Source: Peptococcaceae bacterium CEB3 (GTDB taxonomy: Bacteria; Bacillota; Desulfitobacteriia; Desulfitobacteriales; Desulfitobacteriaceae). Taken from it: DNA of 64,000 bases. Location of the stretch: NCBI GenBank assembly GCA_001029295.1, contig LDXJ01000058.1, forward strand, positions 62,001-126,000. The letters are read 5' to 3'. Of the stretch, positions 1,680 to 24,817 are shown one piece after another. The notes under the pieces are model-generated. The model saw only the letters and a list, made by a program, of their open reading frames with translations. It ran no database searches and was not told the DNA's origin. The number at the start of each line of letters is the position of its first letter. Positions within the stretch are counted from its first letter, which is position 1. The position numbers and the translations under genes are program-made.

Positions 1680-3188
1680 TTAGGGATGCGCCGTCGATTC
1701 GGCGTGGCATCTGTGACAGGAATCAGCCCCTTGCTGAGCGGGGTTTTGCCGGCAGGCACTCCCTTTGACCAAGGGAATGTTAAAACTCTTGCCGCTGATC
1801 CGGCTATACACTTGCCAACGGTTCCCTTCCTGGCGGACAAAAGGCATCTCCTCCCCTTTCGCCGTTACCAGAATCCGGTCACCGAGCTTGAGTGGCGGGA
1901 AGACCGGGTTCGTTATCTTCTCCTCAAACGCCGGGTCATTCAAACTGGTTACCACTTTGGTTCTGGGCAATTGCAAAGTCGTGCCGTGGCAGTCCATACA
2001 TTGAATGTGAACGGCACTGTATTCGGATTGATAAGCGTGCCCGTCGCCCATGACATCCTGGCGGGTATGGCAATCAATACAATCCAGGCTCACCTCACAG
2101 CGGGCGAAGACCTCGCCGGGAACGTAATAATCCTTTACCCGCCTGCTGAAGCTCAATTTCGGTTTCATCCAGTCATTGACCACCTGTTGCATATCTTTAC
2201 GCGGTGTGAATATATCGTGGATCGGGTCATGCTGGCCCTGATTATGACACTGGTTGCACTGAGTGTAGGGAATCTGCGTCGTCAAGCGGTGCACCATGCC
2301 AAAGCCGACCTGATCATGGGGAATCGTCACGTCCTCACCTACGTAGGTGTGGGTGGCATTGGTCAAGACGTGGCAGGTTTCGCATCCGTAGGCGGGCGTC
2401 TCCGTGAGCGCTCCGTTAGCGTGGGCAACGTCCGTGGATTTCACCCGGGCGCCCTTAGGAAAACGAAAGATTGGTAAGTTCCCGTTATTGAGATGACATT
2501 GAGTCAAGCAGTCTGCCACGAACCCCGCTTGCTGAGGCCGCCCGTTCAGCGGATTGGGGAAATACTGAGCACTTCGCCCCGGCTTCAATCCCGGTACGGT
2601 GTTTCCCGGATCGAGCCCGAGCATCCTGCGCACGGAACTCAATTCCCCCGCTTTGGTTGCCATAATCGAGCCCTTGACCAGGTTGACCTCATTATTGGCA
2701 GCCTGTGGATTGCCGCTGTGACACGAGACTCCATTGGGCCCGGTCCCACCACAGCTGAGCGAGGCGCTGTTCAAAGCACCCGGGTGTCCTTGCCCATACC
2801 AATCGGCATGAGCCGTCCGTTCGTCCAATGACAAGGCATTTCCGCCGTGACAGACCGTACACCCAAAAGTATTCGTCGGATGTGAAGGCGAGATCTCCTC
2901 GATACCCAGATGGCAGGTGAGGCAGCGTTCAACTTTCCCGTTAGGCAAGACTAGGTTGACAACTTTTGGTTTCCGTTTTTCCCATTGCGCCAGTTCATGG
3001 CTCAAGGCCTGCCTTTTTGCAGGATCTTTAACAGAGGGCAGTTCACTCTTGATCTTCCCTATCTGCTCGGCGAAATATTCCTTCTGATAAGTCGCCCACA
3101 CCGGCGTCCGACTCTTTTCCAGAGCAAACAACAGGGCAGCCAGCAAGAGCAACCCGGCAACCGGAAGCCAATACTTTTGATTTTTCAT
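1680..3188 (-). CDS. Multihaem c-type cytochrome (seven CXXCH sites plus two atypical)
   Basis: This 502-aa protein has an N-terminal membrane anchor/signal (YWLPVAGLLLLAALLFAL) and seven canonical haem motifs: CLTCH, CTVCH, CETCH, CNQCH, CIDCH, CMDCH and CHRCH. It also has CLTQCH (CX3CH) and a CX10CH stretch ending GVSCH, which may or may not bind haem. It should face outside the membrane and accept electrons from the Rieske/cytochrome b complex encoded just upstream. It follows the subunit IV gene by 9 bases. ATG at 3188 is preferred over TTG at 3194 because AGGGG lies six bases before it. The terminal electron acceptor cannot be read from the sequence. Confidence 0.88.
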   Translation of the reverse strand: MKNQKYWLPVAGLLLLAALLFALEKSRTPVWATYQKEYFAEQIGKIKSELPSVKDPAKRQALSHELAQWEKRKPKVVNLVLPNGKVERCLTCHLGIEEISPSHPTNTFGCTVCHGGNALSLDERTAHADWYGQGHPGALNSASLSCGGTGPNGVSCHSGNPQAANNEVNLVKGSIMATKAGELSSVRRMLGLDPGNTVPGLKPGRSAQYFPNPLNGRPQQAGFVADCLTQCHLNNGNLPIFRFPKGARVKSTDVAHANGALTETPAYGCETCHVLTNATHTYVGEDVTIPHDQVGFGMVHRLTTQIPYTQCNQCHNQGQHDPIHDIFTPRKDMQQVVNDWMKPKLSFSRRVKDYYVPGEVFARCEVSLDCIDCHTRQDVMGDGHAYQSEYSAVHIQCMDCHGTTLQLPRTKVVTSLNDPAFEEKITNPVFPPLKLGDRILVTAKGEEMPFVRQEGNRWQVYSRISGKSFNIPLVKGSACRQNPAQQGADSCHRCHAESTAHP

Positions 3189-3197
3189 TGCCAACCC

Positions 3198-3569
3198 CTA
3201 CCCAAGCCAAACATACATTGCCAGGAGAACCAGAACCGCCCCGGCAAAAAAAACAAAGAAGTAAAAAGCGGGCCTTGCCCCCCGTCCCCTGCTCAACCAA
3301 GGAAACAGGAACAAGAAGATCAAAAAGACACCGGGAATAAGCCAGGCCCCCACCAGAGGCGGAACATAGAGCAGCAGTACTTGGATCGGCCCGAAGATCC
3401 AAGGCGCTGCCGCGTGCCGGAGTAACGGTGCCTGGGGACCCGTCCCCACCGCAGCGGGGAACAAGGCGGAGACCAAGACGAGCGCTGTGAGAAATACCAA
3501 ACCGGCGAGCATTTCCCGTTCGGCCCAACTCAAATTAATTCGCTCACTCCCACTACTACCAGTCTTCAT
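3198..3569 (-). CDS. Cytochrome b/b6 subunit IV-like membrane protein, PEWY motif altered
   Basis: This 123-aa protein has three hydrophobic segments and lies between cytochrome b and the multihaem cytochrome, the position of subunit IV in split bc complexes. The segment APWIFGPIQVLLLYVPP aligns with the PEWYFLP... loop of the quinol-oxidising (Qo) site, but the motif reads APWI, so the catalytic glutamate is absent. ATG at 3569 is chosen because a G-rich ribosome site (GGGGGG) lies just upstream and the coding pattern starts there; the frame stays open further upstream without looking coding. Assignment rests on topology and context, with weak direct similarity. Confidence 0.72.
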   Translation of the reverse strand: MKTGSSGSERINLSWAEREMLAGLVFLTALVLVSALFPAAVGTGPQAPLLRHAAAPWIFGPIQVLLLYVPPLVGAWLIPGVFLIFLFLFPWLSRGRGARPAFYFFVFFAGAVLVLLAMYVWLG

Positions 3570-3655
3570 GGACACCCCCCGCACGAGCACTTTCTTCCGG
3601 CCGGGAACACCAATCTTCGAACACCCATCTTCATCTCGTAACGTCCGGATTCCTG

Positions 3656-3717
3656 CCATTATTCCCAAATATACTGGCAACCCTTTTCCCCAAATAGACC
3701 GGCCCTTTTCCCCAAAT
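3656..3717. repeat. Short direct repeat between cytochrome b and subunit IV
   Basis: The 15-mer CCCTTTTCCCCAAAT occurs at 3681-3695 and 3703-3717 (22-bp period), with a decayed third copy ending at 3670. It fills part of the 184-base gap between two genes that are normally tightly coupled. Confidence 0.6.
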
Positions 3718-3753
3718 AATGTCTGCTTAGGAGTGGCAACACCTTCTCCTCCT

Positions 3754-4380
3754 TCACAGTGGCCGAACTCCCCCGTCTTTCCGGATCTTCCAAAAATGGA
3801 ACATCTGCAGCCACAGGGCCAAAAAAGGCAAGGCCACACAATGCCAAACGTAAACCATCAGCGTGCTGCTGTTCGCCGCGGACACTTCCCCCAAAAACAT
3901 TTGAGCGAGTGGCCTGCCGATACCCGGCAGCAACGTGAGAATATGGACGGCGACAGCCGCCGCCGCTCCGCTTTCCTGGGAACCCCGCAACAAGTAACCG
4001 GTAAAATCCAACACCAGAGTCAAGACCAGTAAACTCATCCCGACCAGCCAATTCCACTCTTTGGGGGGACGGTAAGATTTTGTCCTGACGACACGCACCA
4101 TATGCAAACTGACACTGACAACCATAACCTGCCCGGCCCAAAAATGAAGATTGCGGATCAACCCTCCGAAAGGTATCACCGAGGCCAAGGTGGTGACACT
4201 GGCATACCCGCTTTTTGCGCCCGGCAGATAATGGAACATGAGTAAGATCCCGGTGAGGCCGAGCACTATAAAAGCGAGAAAGGATACTCCTCCGAGGCAA
4301 AAAGTATAGCCGAAAGACATAGCCTTTTCCGAAACGCCATGAGGTCGAATGTGATTGAGAAAACCACGCTTCTGTGACAT
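3754..4380 (-). CDS. Cytochrome b (b6-type N-terminal half of a split cytochrome b)
   Basis: This 208-aa protein has four membrane helices. Helix B has two histidines 13 residues apart (RNLHFWAG...SLHMVR) and helix D two histidines 14 residues apart (VYVWHC...MFHFWKIRKDGG), the usual ligands of the two b haems; the longer helix D spacing is typical of the b6 type. It should carry electrons from menaquinol across the membrane with the Rieske protein (gene upstream, 4518-4949) and subunit IV (downstream). The family length is about 210-220 aa, so it is complete. Start ATG at 4380 lies after a repeat-rich 137-base spacer. Confidence 0.92.
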   Translation of the reverse strand: MSQKRGFLNHIRPHGVSEKAMSFGYTFCLGGVSFLAFIVLGLTGILLMFHYLPGAKSGYASVTTLASVIPFGGLIRNLHFWAGQVMVVSVSLHMVRVVRTKSYRPPKEWNWLVGMSLLVLTLVLDFTGYLLRGSQESGAAAAVAVHILTLLPGIGRPLAQMFLGEVSAANSSTLMVYVWHCVALPFLALWLQMFHFWKIRKDGGVRPL

Positions 4381-4450: not shown

Positions 4451-4519
4451 CACCTCATGCCTCGGACACCTTGCCTCACATCCCGTGTCTGCCGCACCTT
4501 GCCTCTCACCTCATGCCTC
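4451..4519. repeat. Degenerate 28-bp interleaved repeats before cytochrome b
   Basis: CACCTTGCCTC occurs at 4467-4477 and 4495-4505 (28 bp apart) and CACCTCATGCCTC at 4451-4463 and 4507-4519 (56 bp apart). The pattern suggests local duplication of a 28-bp unit in the Rieske-cytochrome b spacer, touching the Rieske stop codon. Confidence 0.6.
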
Positions 4520-4949
4520 AGTTCAGCTTGCGGGAGGTGTCGATCCGCAAAGAGCCGTTCCCCGCCGGCTGAACCGCTACTCGGGGCAGGGGCAGTGGTG
4601 CGGGACCTCGGATCGGCCGGCCGTCTTCGTCATAGACACTTCCGTGACAGGGACATCGCCATTCCCGCTGTTCGGGATAATACCTGACCTCACAACCCAA
4701 ATGAGTACAGGTAGCCAGAATGGCTTGGTATCCCCCGCTCACCCGGCGCAGCCAAACCCTCGTCTGGGGTATATTCTGCCACGGAGCACCCTTTTTCAAT
4801 TCGCCTTTAAAGGAGATGATCGGAGAGGCAACCGCGTCCTCCCGGCTGCCTAGGTAACGCGTGAGCGGGTAGAGAGAGAGAAGCCCGGCCGCCACAAGGG
4901 CCCCTTTACCCATTTTCAAGACATCCCTTCGGGTCCAATCCCGTGCCAT
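4518..4949 (-). CDS. Rieske 2Fe-2S protein, Tat-exported
   Basis: This 143-aa protein has a twin-arginine start (WTRRDVLKMGKG) followed by a hydrophobic helix that would stay as the membrane anchor. The two cluster motifs are CTHLGC and CPCHGS (about residues 81-86 and 98-103), giving the Cys-His pairs of a high-potential Rieske centre. It should take electrons from menaquinol together with cytochrome b and subunit IV, which follow in the same direction, and pass them to a c-type cytochrome. Length and motif spacing are normal. The 203-base gap to the NrfD gene upstream is GC-rich and has short repeats but no clear promoter. Confidence 0.93.
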   Translation of the reverse strand: MARDWTRRDVLKMGKGALVAAGLLSLYPLTRYLGSREDAVASPIISFKGELKKGAPWQNIPQTRVWLRRVSGGYQAILATCTHLGCEVRYYPEQREWRCPCHGSVYDEDGRPIRGPAPLPLPRVAVQPAGNGSLRIDTSRKLN

Positions 4950-5152: not shown

Positions 5153-6058
5153 CTAACGCAGCCAACCAGTCATCTGTCCTGCGTAGGTGATGACATAGCG
5201 CACAAAGAAACCGCCCACCAGCACTAAAAGGCTGCTGCCCAAGCCAACCCACTCGTTCCATTTCCAAGGCAACCTGCCCCTGACCTCCACGATTTTCAGG
5301 ATCAGGGGAACGACCAGACCCAAGATCATAATCATAATCCAGAAGGCCGCCGCATAACTTCCCGTCCACAAGACCGCGTAAGCCAATTGCTGGTTTAACG
5401 TTCCGATTTGCGAGTCGATCATCATCGCTCCGAATATGAGCAATTCAATCCCCACCAGAACAATGTCGACCAGGGCCAGGGAAAGCTTCTCCTCATGGCT
5501 CGCCCGCCAGCGCCGGCTCAGGGCCACCGCGACACCCACCGCGGCCACCCCCGTGGACATGGCCGACACCAAAAACAGTTCCGGCAGCAGGGCGATTTGC
5601 CACAAAGGCCTGTCGGCGGCGTTGAGCAAGACCCCTGTGTAGGATGCCACGCTGACCGCCAAAATCGGCATCCCTTTCGCCAAGCCTCCTTTCCAGGCCC
5701 GTACCCTTTTTATGACGTGCCCGACTTGGTAACGCGGCGGAAGCCAGAGATAGAGATAGAGTAGAGACAACAGCGTAAAGAGGAGGATAGCCCAACTGCC
5801 CCAAGACATCGGAGATTTGTACTGCAAGGTCATAAACAGGTGGTAAAAGTTGAGGGGGCTGCCAAGATCCAATAAGAGGACACCCGTCCCGAAAGCAATC
5901 GGGAAAGGTGCCAGATAGGCTCCCCAGCGGGCTACCCTTTCGTAACGATCTCCCCCCAGCAAAAAAGCGGCATTCGAAGCCACCATGGCCCCGGCGCTGA
6001 CGCCGGCGGTAAAGAGATAGACGACAATGAGCAGCCCCCAGGTCACTTCGGTGTGCAT
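5153..6058 (-). CDS. NrfD/PsrC-type polysulfide reductase membrane subunit
   Basis: This 301-aa protein has about eight to nine membrane helices and begins MHTEVTWGLLIVVYLFTAGV, the typical NrfD start including the Gly-rich first helix. Family members anchor a molybdopterin-ferredoxin pair to the membrane and exchange electrons with the menaquinone pool. It follows the ferredoxin gene by 18 bases and has a strong ribosome site (GGGAGGAGA), so it belongs to the same unit as the reductase. The sequence does not tell whether the complex reduces or oxidises its sulfur substrate. Confidence 0.92.
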   Translation of the reverse strand: MHTEVTWGLLIVVYLFTAGVSAGAMVASNAAFLLGGDRYERVARWGAYLAPFPIAFGTGVLLLDLGSPLNFYHLFMTLQYKSPMSWGSWAILLFTLLSLLYLYLWLPPRYQVGHVIKRVRAWKGGLAKGMPILAVSVASYTGVLLNAADRPLWQIALLPELFLVSAMSTGVAAVGVAVALSRRWRASHEEKLSLALVDIVLVGIELLIFGAMMIDSQIGTLNQQLAYAVLWTGSYAAAFWIMIMILGLVVPLILKIVEVRGRLPWKWNEWVGLGSSLLVLVGGFFVRYVITYAGQMTGWLR

Positions 6059-6076: not shown

Positions 6077-6652
6077 TCACGTTCCCGATGGGATTTCCGC
6101 CACCGGTACGTCAATATAGTAGATATTCGGCCTTGTGCCCGCGTCCGGGCTCAGCTGACGGGCCGGATAGCGGTTCAAAAGCTTGGAAACCACGCTTTCC
6201 GGATCATTTAAGTCGCCCGAATGGCGAGCCTTGCCCAAACAGGTTTGCACACAAGCCGGTTTCAACCCTTGCTCCAACCGCTGCAAACAGAAAGTGCATT
6301 TGTCGGCCTTACCCGTCACCGGATTGAGAAAACGCGCATCATAGGGGCAGGCCTCAATACAGTATTTGCAGCCGATACATTTGGTATCATCAACAAGCAC
6401 AATCCCGTCCGCGCGCTTATAGGTAGCCCCGGTAGGGCAGACCGAGAGGCAGCTGGGCTTTTCACAATGCATACAGTTGCCCGGCTCAAACATTTGCTTG
6501 ACGATGGGAAACTTGCCCACGGCACCGCTGTCTGTCACCCAGTTGCGAGTGAAACCGATCGGCACCTCATTTTCCGCCCGGCAAGCCACCATACAGGCAT
6601 CGCAATCGATACAGCGCGAGGTGATGATGACAAAACCCATGCGAACTGTCAT
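6077..6652 (-). CDS. Four-cluster ferredoxin subunit (PsrB/PhsB type)
   Basis: This 191-aa protein carries four cysteine clusters: CIDCDACMVAC, CMHCEKPSCLSVC, CIGCKYCIEAC and CTFCLQRLEQGLKPAC...C, the standard set for four 4Fe-4S centres in the DmsB/PsrB/NrfC group. It should wire the catalytic molybdopterin subunit (gene upstream) to the NrfD membrane subunit (gene downstream). It has no own export signal, as expected for a subunit carried out with its Tat-exported partner. The start at 6652 has AAAGGA about 12 bases upstream, slightly long. Confidence 0.93.
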   Translation of the reverse strand: MTVRMGFVIITSRCIDCDACMVACRAENEVPIGFTRNWVTDSGAVGKFPIVKQMFEPGNCMHCEKPSCLSVCPTGATYKRADGIVLVDDTKCIGCKYCIEACPYDARFLNPVTGKADKCTFCLQRLEQGLKPACVQTCLGKARHSGDLNDPESVVSKLLNRYPARQLSPDAGTRPNIYYIDVPVAEIPSGT

Positions 6653-6722: not shown

Positions 6723-8930
6723 CTAGGCCTTGCTTACCCTGACAAAGGTCTGGCTTAAAGCCGACGAGCCGGAAATCGGATCGGCCAGGGATTTGTGCAA
6801 AGCCGAATCGCTCGCACCCCGCCCGTAAGCAAAGTGCAGCCCTTTACTGACATGCCCGAAACCCCCGACCATGAAAACACTGTCCGGCCGGATGCCCTCC
6901 GTCACATAAACCTTAATCCGGATTTTCCCGACTTCACTCTCAATGATGACCATATCGTCAGTCTTGACTCCTAACTTTTTTGCCACCGTTGTGTGCAGCC
7001 AAGCTTTGTTTTCCGGAAAAATCTCCAAGAGCCAACGGTTGTCTTGCGTAAACATCTGAGAATGCTGCGCCGTCTTGCCTGTCAAGAGATAGAACTCATC
7101 CGGCCCGGGTTTCGGCGGAGCCTCCCAAGTCGGAACCGCCTTTTTACCCATCTGCGCCATGATGCCTGAGGCGATCTCGATCTTGCCGCTGGAGGTTTGA
7201 AAAGCAAAATCTTTGGAGTGGTCCTCTTTAAAGTTAGGGACCCGGTAGTGTCCTTTCCGCTCCAATTCCTCCAGGCTCACCGTGTAAGGTTTCAGCTCCT
7301 GCACCAAAAGGTCCTTTTCATCCTGGTAAGGCAGAAAATCTCCCAAGCCCAATTTCACGGCCAGTTCTTTATAAATCATCAAACTGCTCTTCGTATCATA
7401 AAGCGGCTTGATCACCGGCTGCCGGATAAAGATCTCGTCACCGATCGGCACGAGTCCGTCGTAGCGCTCCAAGTAACTGGATTCGGGCAGAATGACATCG
7501 GCATAATAGGCGGTGTCATTGGCCATAATGTCGATGACCCCTATGAAATCCAGTTTCATTATGGCATTGATCGTCTTCTGCCTTTCCGGAATCGACAATA
7601 CCGGATTCTGCCGGGAAATGAGCCAACCTTTGGCCTGATAGGGCTTACCCGTGAGGATATTGTCCCTCATCACCTGCAGGACGCCGTAAGCCAGGGGTAC
7701 CATCGGGAATTGCCAGGGCACTCCGTCCAAGCGCATGCCGACCGCCGCTGGATAAGAAGGGTGAGGCAGGGTTCCCAGCTTGGCCGTATTGATGGATTGG
7801 TCGGGAATGAGACCTCCCGGCTTCGCCCAGTTCCCTGCCAGAGCATTGAGCACCGCGATGGCCCGCTCCGCCTGAAAAGAATTCAGGAAGTTCGAGGTGC
7901 GCCAATTGGGATGGGCGATGGCCGCCGGAGCGCTGGCCGCGAATTCCCTGGCAATGCGGCGAATCGTTCCCGCCGGAATCTCCGTTTGAACCTCAGCCCA
8001 TTGAGGGGTATAGGTGGCCACCTCTTTGGTCAATTCATCAAATCCTTGGGTGTACTGAGAAACAAACTTAGCGTCATAGAGCTTTTCGTTGACCAGAACA
8101 TTGATTAAGGCGAGAAAAAAAGCCAAATCAGTTCCGGGTCGGATCGGCAGCCACTCCGCTTTGGCCGCCGTTTTCGTGAAGCGCGGATCGAGCACCACCA
8201 CTTTGGCACCGCGGGCGACCATGTCGATCATTTCCTGGGTCTCGATATTGGAGATTCCTTCCGCCAAATTACGGCCGGAGAAAATCATATAGTTACAATT
8301 GGCATAATCCGTCCCCGGCTGGGCAACCCCATAGGTGTAGAGAAAGCCTGTGGTCATCGAATTGAAACAGAGGCTGCGTTGGGTTCCGTAATTGGGGGTT
8401 CCGTAAGCTTTTAACAATGTTTCAAAAAAAGGCTGGGACAAGTTATCCGTGGAGTTGAAGATCATCGCCTTCGCCCCGTATTTGTCCTTAATTTTCTTCA
8501 TTTGCTCAGCCGTATAGGTCAGAGCCTCGTCCCAAGAGGCCCTGCGCCATAAGCCGCTGCCCCTGGCACCTGCGCGGATTAGGGGAAACTTCACCCGGCT
8601 CGGACTGTATAAAGTCTCGATTCCGGCGTTGCCGCGCGGGCAGAGTTTACCGGCATTGTTCGGGTGATCCGGGTTTCCCTCCAGTTTGCGCACCACCCCG
8701 TTCTCCACCCGAGCAATGACACCGCAGCGCCAGACACACTGTTCACAGATTGTGTAGACGTATTTGGTTCCGCTCAAGGTTGATGCCACCGTACTCCGGG
8801 CATCTCCCAAACCCGGCTTGGGATGAAGCAGCCCGGAACCCGCGGCTGCGCCCAAGGCAGCCGCCGCCACTCCGCCCTTGATAAATTGTCTTCTGCTGAA
8901 GAGTTGATCCCACGTATAGATTTTTGGCAC
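6723..8930 (-). CDS. Molybdopterin oxidoreductase, Tat-exported, thiosulfate/polysulfide reductase-like
   Basis: This 735-aa catalytic subunit begins with a twin-arginine signal (FSRRQFIKGGVAAAALG), then a 4Fe-4S motif CEQCVWRCGV (completed by LCPRGNAG) and the Mo-bis-PGD domains. The likely molybdenum ligand is the cysteine in GTQRSLCFNS, as in PsrA/PhsA enzymes, rather than the serine of DMSO reductases. Substrate could be thiosulfate, polysulfide or tetrathionate; the neighbouring YeeE/YedE genes favour a sulfur compound. GTG at 8930 is chosen because AAGGGGG lies upstream and the Tat signal follows directly. It begins 16 bases after the UGA-containing YeeE gene. Confidence 0.9.
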   Translation of the reverse strand: MPKIYTWDQLFSRRQFIKGGVAAAALGAAAGSGLLHPKPGLGDARSTVASTLSGTKYVYTICEQCVWRCGVIARVENGVVRKLEGNPDHPNNAGKLCPRGNAGIETLYSPSRVKFPLIRAGARGSGLWRRASWDEALTYTAEQMKKIKDKYGAKAMIFNSTDNLSQPFFETLLKAYGTPNYGTQRSLCFNSMTTGFLYTYGVAQPGTDYANCNYMIFSGRNLAEGISNIETQEMIDMVARGAKVVVLDPRFTKTAAKAEWLPIRPGTDLAFFLALINVLVNEKLYDAKFVSQYTQGFDELTKEVATYTPQWAEVQTEIPAGTIRRIAREFAASAPAAIAHPNWRTSNFLNSFQAERAIAVLNALAGNWAKPGGLIPDQSINTAKLGTLPHPSYPAAVGMRLDGVPWQFPMVPLAYGVLQVMRDNILTGKPYQAKGWLISRQNPVLSIPERQKTINAIMKLDFIGVIDIMANDTAYYADVILPESSYLERYDGLVPIGDEIFIRQPVIKPLYDTKSSLMIYKELAVKLGLGDFLPYQDEKDLLVQELKPYTVSLEELERKGHYRVPNFKEDHSKDFAFQTSSGKIEIASGIMAQMGKKAVPTWEAPPKPGPDEFYLLTGKTAQHSQMFTQDNRWLLEIFPENKAWLHTTVAKKLGVKTDDMVIIESEVGKIRIKVYVTEGIRPDSVFMVGGFGHVSKGLHFAYGRGASDSALHKSLADPISGSSALSQTFVRVSKA

Positions 8931-8946
8931 CTTCGCTGTCCCCCTT

Positions 8947-9555
8947 TCAGGCAGAAGTTCCGTTCTCTCGGACCTGTCCTGTCCCGGCCGCCTGTTGCTG
9001 CTCGGGTGCGTCCGCCCGCTGTTTCGTCTCGCTGATTTTGCTGACGATATAGAAAATGAGCGTACCTCCCACCACGATAAAAATGAGAAGCCAATGGTTG
9101 ACCCGGAGCAACTCACCGAGCGTCTTCTGTCCATAGGACGCATAGGTAGAGATCTTCAGGAAGAATGATTGGTAGGTTGCACCGAAGAGAACGCCTCCCG
9201 TAAGAAAACCCAAAAGACCGGGAATGATATAATCGAGATTTCCTTGACCACAGCCTGTGATCAATGTGCCCGGTCAGGTGCCGGCCATGGCCATCCCGAT
9301 TCCGAAAATCAGGCCTCCGACTAAATTACCCAGGACATAAGTCGAGCTCACAGCGTCCAGTTTGAGAGCGCCCAGATCTTTGAGAAAGTAGAGACCGACC
9401 AAACCCACGGAAATCGCGGTCAACATATATTTCATGACCGTGTTGTCTTTGAAACGGAATTGATTTACGATTTTGTGGTAATGCCCCAGTCCCGCTTTCT
9501 GCAGAGTGAGAGCGAAGAAGAATCCGAGCAAGATCGGAATCACATAAGTTTCCAT
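8947..9555 (-). CDS. YeeE/YedE-family sulfur transporter half, probable selenoprotein (in-frame UGA)
   Basis: ATG at 9555 opens a frame that reads METYVIPILLGFFFALTLQK... and reaches GMAMAGT, then a TGA at 9274-9276, then continues in the same frame as PGTLITGCGQGN and further helices to the stop at 8947. Read through, the product is 202 aa, normal for a YeeE/YedE half. The family motif is G(T/G)CPGT, so the TGA sits on the conserved substrate-contacting cysteine. A hairpin with SECIS geometry follows (9244-9264). This supports selenocysteine insertion over a nonsense mutation. The start overlaps the stop of the preceding YeeE/YedE gene by one base and has GGGAGG upstream. In known members the cysteines pass thiosulfate through the membrane. 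Confidence 0.8.
9244..9276 (-). promoter_or_regulatory. Candidate bacterial SECIS element after in-frame UGA
   Basis: Starting nine bases after the UGA, TTGATCACA pairs with TGTGGTCAA (nine pairs, one G-U) around a GGC loop. The loop begins 18 bases from the UGA and its first base is G. Both match the known bacterial SECIS pattern, in which the loop lies roughly 16-37 bases from UGA and has a G in its first two positions. Confidence 0.72.
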
Positions 9556-10082
9556 CAGTAATTCCTCCCGTAGAGAATTTTGGTCGTAACGATTCCGCTG
9601 ATAAACAAACCGACAATGAAAATGAACCCTGCCGGCGCCAGCTGCATCGAACCAGAAATCGCCAAGCCGCTGGTACATCCCCCGGCGATCCCTGCCGCGT
9701 ATTCGATAATCACCCCGCCCAGGAACATCATACCCCAACGTTTCAGCTTACTCGGGCCGAAATTCCGGCTCCATTCCTGTTCAGGCATCACTCGCAGCTT
9801 GAAATCATGGGACCATTTACTCGACACGAAGGACCCCAACAACATGCCCACGAAGAGCATGACTTGAAAAGTGATCACCGGGGGCATTTGAAAGCGGAAA
9901 TACATAGTATTGGCCCAGGGCAAATGGAAGGCTTTGCCTAAGATGCTGTCTATACTTTCCAGTCCCCCCGAAGAACCTATCGTGGTATTGGCCAAAACAT
10001 AGGTAGCCACACAGGTTATTCCCAACACAAAACCTGCCGCCCAAGGCGACCAAAGTTTCTTTTTCATGGCTGCATGAATCAT
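9555..10082 (-). CDS. YeeE/YedE-family sulfur transporter, first half
   Basis: This 175-aa protein has about four to five membrane helices and the motif YAAGIAGGCTSGLAISG, which carries the normal cysteine that its downstream partner replaces by UGA. Paired half-size YeeE/YedE proteins together form a pore that takes up thiosulfate or related sulfane sulfur. ATG at 10082 has AAGGAGGG eight bases upstream; it starts directly after the stop of the trihaem cytochrome gene. The stop overlaps the start of the second half, so the two are translationally coupled. Confidence 0.88.
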   Translation of the reverse strand: MIHAAMKKKLWSPWAAGFVLGITCVATYVLANTTIGSSGGLESIDSILGKAFHLPWANTMYFRFQMPPVITFQVMLFVGMLLGSFVSSKWSHDFKLRVMPEQEWSRNFGPSKLKRWGMMFLGGVIIEYAAGIAGGCTSGLAISGSMQLAPAGFIFIVGLFISGIVTTKILYGRNY

Positions 10083-10083
10083 C

Positions 10084-11037
10084 TTAGCGTCCCTCCTTAG
10101 AACGTACGGCTTTACTGAGGCGGACAAGCAGATCCAGGTCCGTTTCCGGCAGACCTTGAAGTTTGTCCAGAAGTTCTGGAGATAGTCCGGCAACCGTCTG
10201 CAGTAATTTCTGCCCTTCACGCCCCCGGTCCAAAAGCGCTGCCACAGCTGTCACAGTCTTAGGTTCACAATCGCGCAGCTTGTAGAAAATATCCCGAATC
10301 TCCGGCGACTCGCGCTGGAGATTAACCAGGTCCTCACCCGCGTTCTTGGGTTTTAAGTACTGCCACAGCCACATTCCCTTCCACCAACGCCACAGCAAAA
10401 CCGCCAGGACCAAAAGAATCACTAAGTCCACTAAACCGAAGACAATGGTCCAGAGCGAAATCGGGCTCTGAAAATTCTTATTAAAATCGATGACATCAAA
10501 ATTCGGATTCGCGCCCGGCGTCTGCGCGGCGCCCGGCTGGGACACGGCCGGTACCTGAGTCGCGGCGGGGGACGGTGAAGAAGCGCCGCCGGAGGCAGGA
10601 GTCGAAGCACCGCCCGAAGCCGGGGAAGAAGTACCTCCGGAGGGCGGAGTCGACGAATTCCCGGTCTGGCCCGAACCCCCAGCCGAACCCCCGTACTTCG
10701 CGACCATAGCCGCGGTGTTCGAGGGGTGACAGGAGGCACACGTTTGACTCGGTTCTGTCAGCGGATTTTTGATCACCCCCACGTGGGCTTTTGTCATATC
10801 TGTTTCCGAAGCGTTCCCCAGGTGGCAAGCCTGACAAAAATCTCCGAAAGCGTGTTGGGTGTGCCATGCTCCTTTTTGATTGACCGGAAGTTTGCCTTGA
10901 ACCTCATGACAGGTTTTACAGGAGGATGTCGAGGCGCCGCAGGCGGCCTCGGCTATTTTCGGCGCTGACAGCAGCAGGCCCGAAGCCAGCACTACTGAAC
11001 ACGTCGCCGTAAAAAAGATCCACCGTTTTTCTTTCAT
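10084..11037 (-). CDS. Trihaem c-type cytochrome with Ser/Gly/Pro linker and membrane anchor
   Basis: This 317-aa protein has a signal peptide (FFTATCSVVLASGLLLSAP), three haem motifs (CKTCH, CQACH, CASCH at about residues 40-107), then a low-complexity linker built of repeats such as SPASGGASTPASGGAS, one membrane helix near residue 205 (VDLVILLVLAVLLWRW) and a cytoplasmic helical tail of about 90 residues. It would expose haems outside and the tail inside. It is the first gene of the cluster. The haem part resembles cytochrome c3/c7-like electron carriers; the tail is not recognised and could contact cytoplasmic or membrane partners. Confidence 0.85.
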   Translation of the reverse strand: MKEKRWIFFTATCSVVLASGLLLSAPKIAEAACGASTSSCKTCHEVQGKLPVNQKGAWHTQHAFGDFCQACHLGNASETDMTKAHVGVIKNPLTEPSQTCASCHPSNTAAMVAKYGGSAGGSGQTGNSSTPPSGGTSSPASGGASTPASGGASSPSPAATQVPAVSQPGAAQTPGANPNFDVIDFNKNFQSPISLWTIVFGLVDLVILLVLAVLLWRWWKGMWLWQYLKPKNAGEDLVNLQRESPEIRDIFYKLRDCEPKTVTAVAALLDRGREGQKLLQTVAGLSPELLDKLQGLPETDLDLLVRLSKAVRSKEGR

Positions 11038-24574: not shown

Positions 24575-24800
24575 CGAAAAAGCCGACCCTCACTGGAAAG
24601 GCCGGCTGTTAACGTCTCAACCGATTTATCGATACTCTGCCTTTCTCCACTCGTCTGAGTTTTGGCACGTACACAGCTAGGGTTATACCCAGCCACATTA
24701 AGTAAAACCTTATGCCGGTAATACCTGTTAACCCATTAGCGTCTCTCGACATTTCTGGGCAGTGGCGTATGCTCTATGCAGAAGCCTCACCTAACGAAGA
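24575..24800 (-). promoter_or_regulatory. M-box (ykoK) magnesium riboswitch with terminator
   Basis: The minus-strand RNA begins CTTCGTTAGGTGAGGCTTCT (24799-24780) and contains, in order, TACGCCACTGCCCAGAAATG, GAGAGACGCTAATGGGT, ATAAGGTTTTACTTAATGTG, GGCTGGGTAT and ACTCAGACGAGTGG, the conserved blocks of the ykoK leader. A terminator (AGCCGGCC against GGTCGGCT, then five T) follows at 24608-24575. High Mg2+ would fold the aptamer and stop transcription. The gene it controls is the Nramp-related transporter 200 bases downstream. Confidence 0.93.
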
Positions 24801-24817
24801 ATATCTAGTTCCCCACT

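Follow-up and report, generated by a model that had tools for sequence, protein, structure and literature searches.

Introduction

Can a membrane transporter of the YeeE/YedE family carry selenocysteine (Sec) in place of a cysteine that lies in its sulfur path? This question is raised by a minus-strand gene of Peptococcaceae bacterium CEB3 (positions 8947..9555 of the 64,000-nucleotide stretch analysed here, hereafter the window), which has an in-frame UGA where the family has a conserved cysteine. Selenoproteins are mostly redox enzymes. Transport-related selenoproteins are few in a 2026 review, according to which their precise roles need further work (PMC13188914). For the YeeE/YedE family, whose structure has been solved, two mechanisms have been proposed: in TsuA whole thiosulfate would move along a hydrogen-bond relay (PMC11073785), and in YedE1E2 sulfane sulfur would be relayed through persulfides (PMC10812762). 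The TsuA residues Cys293, Cys91 and Cys22 form a row that spans the membrane, a proposed path for thiosulfate (PMC11073785). PmpA and PmpB, a proposed pair, each have a single cysteine, at the positions of Cys293 and Cys91, respectively (PMC11582611). The split YedE1E2 is an importer of zero-valent sulfur that depends on both of its cysteines, and a Cys-persulfide route has been proposed for it (PMC10812762).

Results

A YeeE/YedE half-gene with a UGA at the central cysteine

The gene begins with ATG at 9555..9553 and ends with its terminal TGA stop at 8949..8947. With the internal TGA at 9276..9274 read as Sec, the frame METYV...GMAMAGT-U-PGTLITGCGQGNLDY... gives a protein of 202 residues with Sec at position 94. 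This PmpB-like membrane protein matches the N-terminal half of the family (PF04143 positions 10-167) with a score of 90 bits against a curated cut-off of 27 bits, and in a phmmer alignment with TsuA of Spirochaeta thermophila its residue 94 falls on Cys91. The initial annotation, made from the letters of the sequence, had placed the UGA at a conserved Cys site in a frame intact on both sides, and so we find it. It had also seen an upstream half with a normal Cys in the motif GGCTSG; the Cys is there, but each half has a gene of its own, as with PmpA/PmpB or YedE1/YedE2. The partner gene (9555..10082, minus strand, start placed by eye) encodes a PmpA-like C-terminal half with the sequence AGGCTSG (Cys codon 9677..9675) and matches PF04143 positions 168-308 at 68.2 bits, again above the cut-off of 27, so that the two adjacent half-genes match one half each of the full-length family. 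The GGCTSG motif has Cys in 47 of the 47 loci in which it was found. The Sec half, which is half-length, scores below the cut-offs of the TsuA models NF052577 (53.7 vs 400) and NF041049 (47.9 vs 645), and a search of NCBIfam profiles gave no selenoprotein model for the form of the motif found here, [TF]UPGT.

The UGA is conserved and the frame beyond it is under selection

We compared the site codon among 37 homologues, and found the Cys/Sec exchange that the initial annotation had pointed to as a check: 25 have TGA and 12 have TGT or TGC. The TGA-containing (Sec) forms fall into two clades, A (20 forms) and B (five forms). Close orthologues within the taxonomic family have TGA in 19 of 20 cases and TGC in one, and a homologue from another family of the same order (L067) also has TGA. 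A sample of 398 genomes of the phylum supplied the five clade-B forms, which are about 50% identical and have the motif FUPGTC, and all 25 Sec forms carry G[TF]UPGT. The finished chromosome of Acididesulfobacillus acetoxydans (NZ_LR746496), a member of the same GTDB genus, has an orthologue (L045) with 90% identity and the same TGA. Since the codon recurs in this independent finished genome and in many Desulfosporosinus, a sequencing error that hides a TGT or TGC at 9274-9276 is ruled out.

The frame beyond the UGA is open for 94-109 codons, and the median dN/dS is 0.059 after the UGA versus 0.039 before it, which indicates purifying selection past the UGA; we therefore reject a pseudogene. 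The close homologues show neither decay nor other nonsense codons: aside from the terminal stop, each has one in-frame TGA or none. Where the homologues lack Sec the site residue is Cys and never Trp. A search of a plasmid collection returned only distant matches, of less than 45% identity and covering half of the query.

Placing the Sec label on the tree needs three changes. One TGC form, L031/L059 (Desulfosporosinus sp. UBA5188), is nested inside the Sec clade and is, judging by that position, a Sec-to-Cys reversal; its genome has SelA and no SelB above the cut-off in an assembly that is 85% complete, and it provides a natural control. Grouping all Sec forms and L031 as one clade is rejected (AU test, p 1e-5), which leaves two origins of Sec, sideways spread or repeated loss as explanations. 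Owing to long branches the deep branching order is unsure.

Selenocysteine machinery and the SECIS hairpin

The decoding apparatus that the initial annotation presupposed is present. The genome that holds the window (5.3 Mb, 64 contigs) encodes selA, selB and selD as well as a tRNA-Sec with anticodon TCA. The selD gene (L073, G000:C60:148799-149725, outside the window) adjoins selA and itself has an in-frame TGA, and its product, selenophosphate synthetase, is probably a selenoprotein too. SelB was found in five of the five clade-B genomes; two Cys-form genomes (G067 and G026), both incomplete assemblies, gave no SelB above the cut-off.

A bSECIS-type hairpin of 9 bp (9244..9264, minus strand) begins 9 bases 3' of the UGA and presents the loop GGC (9255..9253) 18 nt from it, with a folding energy of -12.9 kcal/mol. 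This is the geometry first described for the locus, and it agrees with that given for bSECIS elements in the 2026 review (PMC13188914). On its own the hairpin would prove little. Similar hairpins of at least 9 bp occur at 2.0% of the positions in the window (1 in 50) and those of at least 7 bp at 10.7%; the fold z-score is only -0.99, with a P of about 0.01 on codon resampling; L069 and L063, which are Cys forms rich in GC, fold equally well; and an Rfam search gave no match to a SECIS family.

Comparison among the homologues is more informative. In 19 Sec genes the seven codons of the hairpin (+4 to +10) show the lowest mean codon entropy among 85 codon windows, 0.29, compared with 1.27 for the remaining invariant codons. 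Both Sec clades have the hairpin in the same register with a loop that starts with GG, and five stem pairs are changed on both sides. The stem covariation score is 0.362; shuffled controls give 0.180, with none of 500 reaching the observed value, and sliding the register gives no more than 0.144. Since it rests mainly on one split between the two clades, the covariation amounts to few independent events. The reverted L031 has lost both loop-closing pairs, and its hairpin is weakened. It is the conserved UGA, the synonymous constraint and the covariation, and not the hairpin alone, that lead us to judge the Sec coding real. We conclude, by computation only and with a probability of about 0.94, that this YeeE/YedE half-transporter is a selenoprotein, in which the UGA at 9276..9274 would be translated as Sec at the TsuA Cys91 position by means of the hairpin at 9264..9244 together with SelA, SelB, SelD and tRNA-Sec.

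Two other readings of the UGA must be weighed against this one, and we consider both very improbable. The codon might be a genuine stop, whether as a nonsense mutation, in a pseudogene, or between two proteins with reinitiation at TTG 9264, and standard gene callers do split the locus into ORFs at 9274-9738 and 8947-9264. However, a stop codon does not account well for a UGA that 25 homologues from two clades all have at the Cys site, without any further internal stop, with a dN/dS of 0.059 beyond it and a Sec system encoded in the genome. Alternatively, the UGA might be read as something other than Sec, through readthrough by tRNA-Trp or tRNA-Cys or in a reassigned code. We reject reassignment since the gene itself terminates with TGA and a full Sec system is encoded in the genome; more generally, Cys and never Trp at the site in homologues, and hairpin codons that are both constrained and covarying, outweigh what speaks for such decoding, namely that hairpins are common in the window and that the Sec assignment is a computational one.

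An extra cysteine follows the selenocysteine

Eight residues after Sec94 lies an extra cysteine, Cys102, whose TGT codon (9250..9252) also forms the 3' side of the hairpin top. Cys is found at +8 in all 20 clade-A Sec forms and at +4 in all five clade-B forms, but among the 12 Cys forms it is found at +8 in none and at +4 in one (L061). The reverted L031 has Ile at +8 and has thus lost the extra Cys. This association, which as judged from the homologues has only two supported independent contrasts, is a pattern and not proof. Since TsuA Cys22, Arg98 and Glu101 correspond to Gly24, Gly101 and Gln104 in the Sec half, the extra Cys might replace Cys22. An AlphaFold model of the Sec half alone (26-row alignment) has modest confidence (pLDDT 71.8), and Foldseek searches with it gave no match to TsuA or to any fold; the model therefore only suggests a short helix at 95-103, directly after Sec94, along which +4 and +8 would be one and two turns.

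The extra Cys may, on the other hand, have no role of its own and be fixed only because its codon belongs to the SECIS stem, and we give this explanation a somewhat less than even chance. The position of the clade-A TGT in the stem top and the small number of independent contrasts fit it. On the other side, L067 lacks the loop-closing pair yet keeps the TGT, and in clade B residue +8 is Gly and the Cys lies at +4, which is not within the inner stem.

The gene lies in a respiratory cluster

Ten genes between 1680 and 11037 form a cluster, all on the minus strand where individually placed, that combines the split transporter with a PsrA/PhsA-like reductase, a Rieske protein, a cytochrome b and multihaem cytochromes of ExtM/ExtP-like type; its order is common to several Bacillota families. 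Upstream of the selenoprotein gene are the partner half and then a c-type cytochrome-like membrane protein with CxxCH motifs (10084..11037), assigned from sequence and synteny, and the reductase set lies downstream. The molybdopterin catalytic subunit (6723..8933, start placed by eye) has a twin-arginine-type leader; its best PDB match is 2vpw (E 4e-135), and it scores 587 bits with the PhsA model, below the cut-off of 694. Further along are the Fe-S electron-transfer subunit of PsrB/PhsB type (6077..6652), the NrfD-type membrane subunit (5153..6058), the Rieske Fe-S protein (4518..4949) and an ExtP/b6-like cytochrome b (3754..4380). They are followed by a small membrane protein region recognized by synteny (about 3198..3839) and an ExtM-like multihaem c-type cytochrome (1680..3194), the latter also placed by synteny.

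The order of the cluster is kept in L046 and in those Desulfosporosinus loci that are long enough to show it, and most of it is kept in clade-B loci and in the Cys-form locus L088, down to about 50% identity. Two Chloroflexota Cys forms have the order cytochrome, half 2, half 1, PsrA-like, Fe-S. In the clade-B Sec form L083 (G119:C13:36000-50000) the genes for the transporter, the Rieske protein, cytochrome b and the multihaem cytochrome are retained, but none of PsrA-like, Fe-S or NrfD type was seen between them. Elsewhere in the window, an M-box (ykoK) magnesium riboswitch lies at 24639-24805 on the minus strand (137 bits).

Discussion

What might such a transporter do? A. acetoxydans uses sulfur and thiosulfate both for respiration and for disproportionation (PMC8982180). 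The Sec half probably carries sulfur into anaerobic, sulfur-respiring bacteria. We think it quite likely that the Sec half and its neighbour, with Cys at the TsuA Cys293 position, make up a transporter of the PmpAB/YedE1E2 type that serves the adjacent polysulfide/thiosulfate reductase-like complex. Because of the precedents of TsuA, PmpA/PmpB and YedE1E2 we favour an importer made of two subunits, for sulfane sulfur or thiosulfate, in which Sec is the middle relay. Incoming sulfane sulfur, as polysulfide, zero-valent sulfur or thiosulfate, would meet the partner Cys; Sec94 would then act as a nucleophilic relay through an Se-S adduct; and the extra Cys deeper in (+8 here, +4 in clade B) would take over in place of TsuA's missing third Cys. 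Our computations support the Sec coding, the position of the residue, its conservation and the gene cluster; how the halves pair, what they carry and in which direction, the Se-S chemistry and what the extra Cys does are what we infer, and the relay order from partner Cys to Sec to extra Cys is put forward tentatively, at rather less than even odds. Anionic thiosulfate might be repelled by a selenolate. More speculative still is the full proposal of a selenol membrane relay, in which Sec and an acquired Cys would pass sulfane sulfur by transient Se-S bonds and feed the adjacent Psr, Rieske and cytochrome b system; it would have arisen on two or more occasions, or Sec and Cys would have replaced each other repeatedly.

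The substrate of the selenoprotein could instead be a selenium compound, as for the selenium YedE-like proteins, although we find this unlikely. The Sec half gives weak matches to the selenium YedE models TIGR04112 and NF033796, the cluster has cytochromes like ExtM and ExtP, which are named after selenite/tellurite operons, and A. acetoxydans respires selenate (PMC8982180). Yet the scores are 20.6 against a cut-off of 200 and 23.2 against 350, respectively, the reductase is closest to PsrA/PhsA, and no selenium-metabolism gene adjoins.

The initial annotation named no described example, but a YeeE/YedE selenoprotein is already listed in reviews of 2022 and 2026 (PF04143, WP_012471001.1, motif GUxSG; PMC9312934, PMC13188914). 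That protein, from Trichlorobacter lovleyi, is of the same PF04143 family and likewise has Sec in a conserved Cys motif. Its listed motif sets it apart, since GUxSG occurs in none of the 25 Sec forms; here [TF]UPGT lies in a separate half-gene, with an extra Cys at +8 or +4 and a respiratory cluster around it. Like PmpAB and YedE1E2 (PMC11582611, PMC10812762), the present pair consists of two half-genes, one of which supplies a relay residue at the Cys293 position and the other at the Cys91 position; unlike them, it has Sec as the Cys91-type residue, an extra Cys after it, and a linked reductase complex rather than a persulfide dioxygenase. By alignment the Sec half shares with TsuA/YeeE (PDB 6leo, 8k1r) the first-half fold region and the Cys91 position, but here the gene is split, and of the three TsuA relay cysteines Cys22 is Gly24 and Cys91 is Sec94, while the GGCTSG Cys of the partner is matched to the second half. 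The cluster resembles PsrABC and PhsABC in having catalytic, Fe-S and NrfD-type subunits in adjoining genes, and differs from them in what it has besides: a Rieske protein, a cytochrome b, multihaem cytochromes and the selenoprotein transporter.

The literature searched, which did not include recent selenoprotein papers by Haft and colleagues, gave no description of the [TF]UPGT form, its clades, its cluster or the extra Cys. The main texts of GOS 2008, Peng 2016 and deep-Sep 2025 do not name the YeeE/YedE family, and two papers on A. acetoxydans, one of them PMC8982180, do not mention the gene by family name. What seems to be new here is the [TF]UPGT Sec form, encoded by a half-gene of its own, together with its clades, the extra Cys and the cluster.

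A gene of this type is easily called truncated or split, which matters for annotation. Its cluster, of which we found no description, points to a sulfur-respiration module widely kept in Desulfosporosinus and relatives. The natural exchange of Cys for Sec at the residue in the middle of the relay, alongside which an extra Cys comes and goes, offers a direct handle on the question of the YeeE/YedE mechanism. If the selenol-relay reading is true, this would be a transporter with selenium chemistry in its pore.
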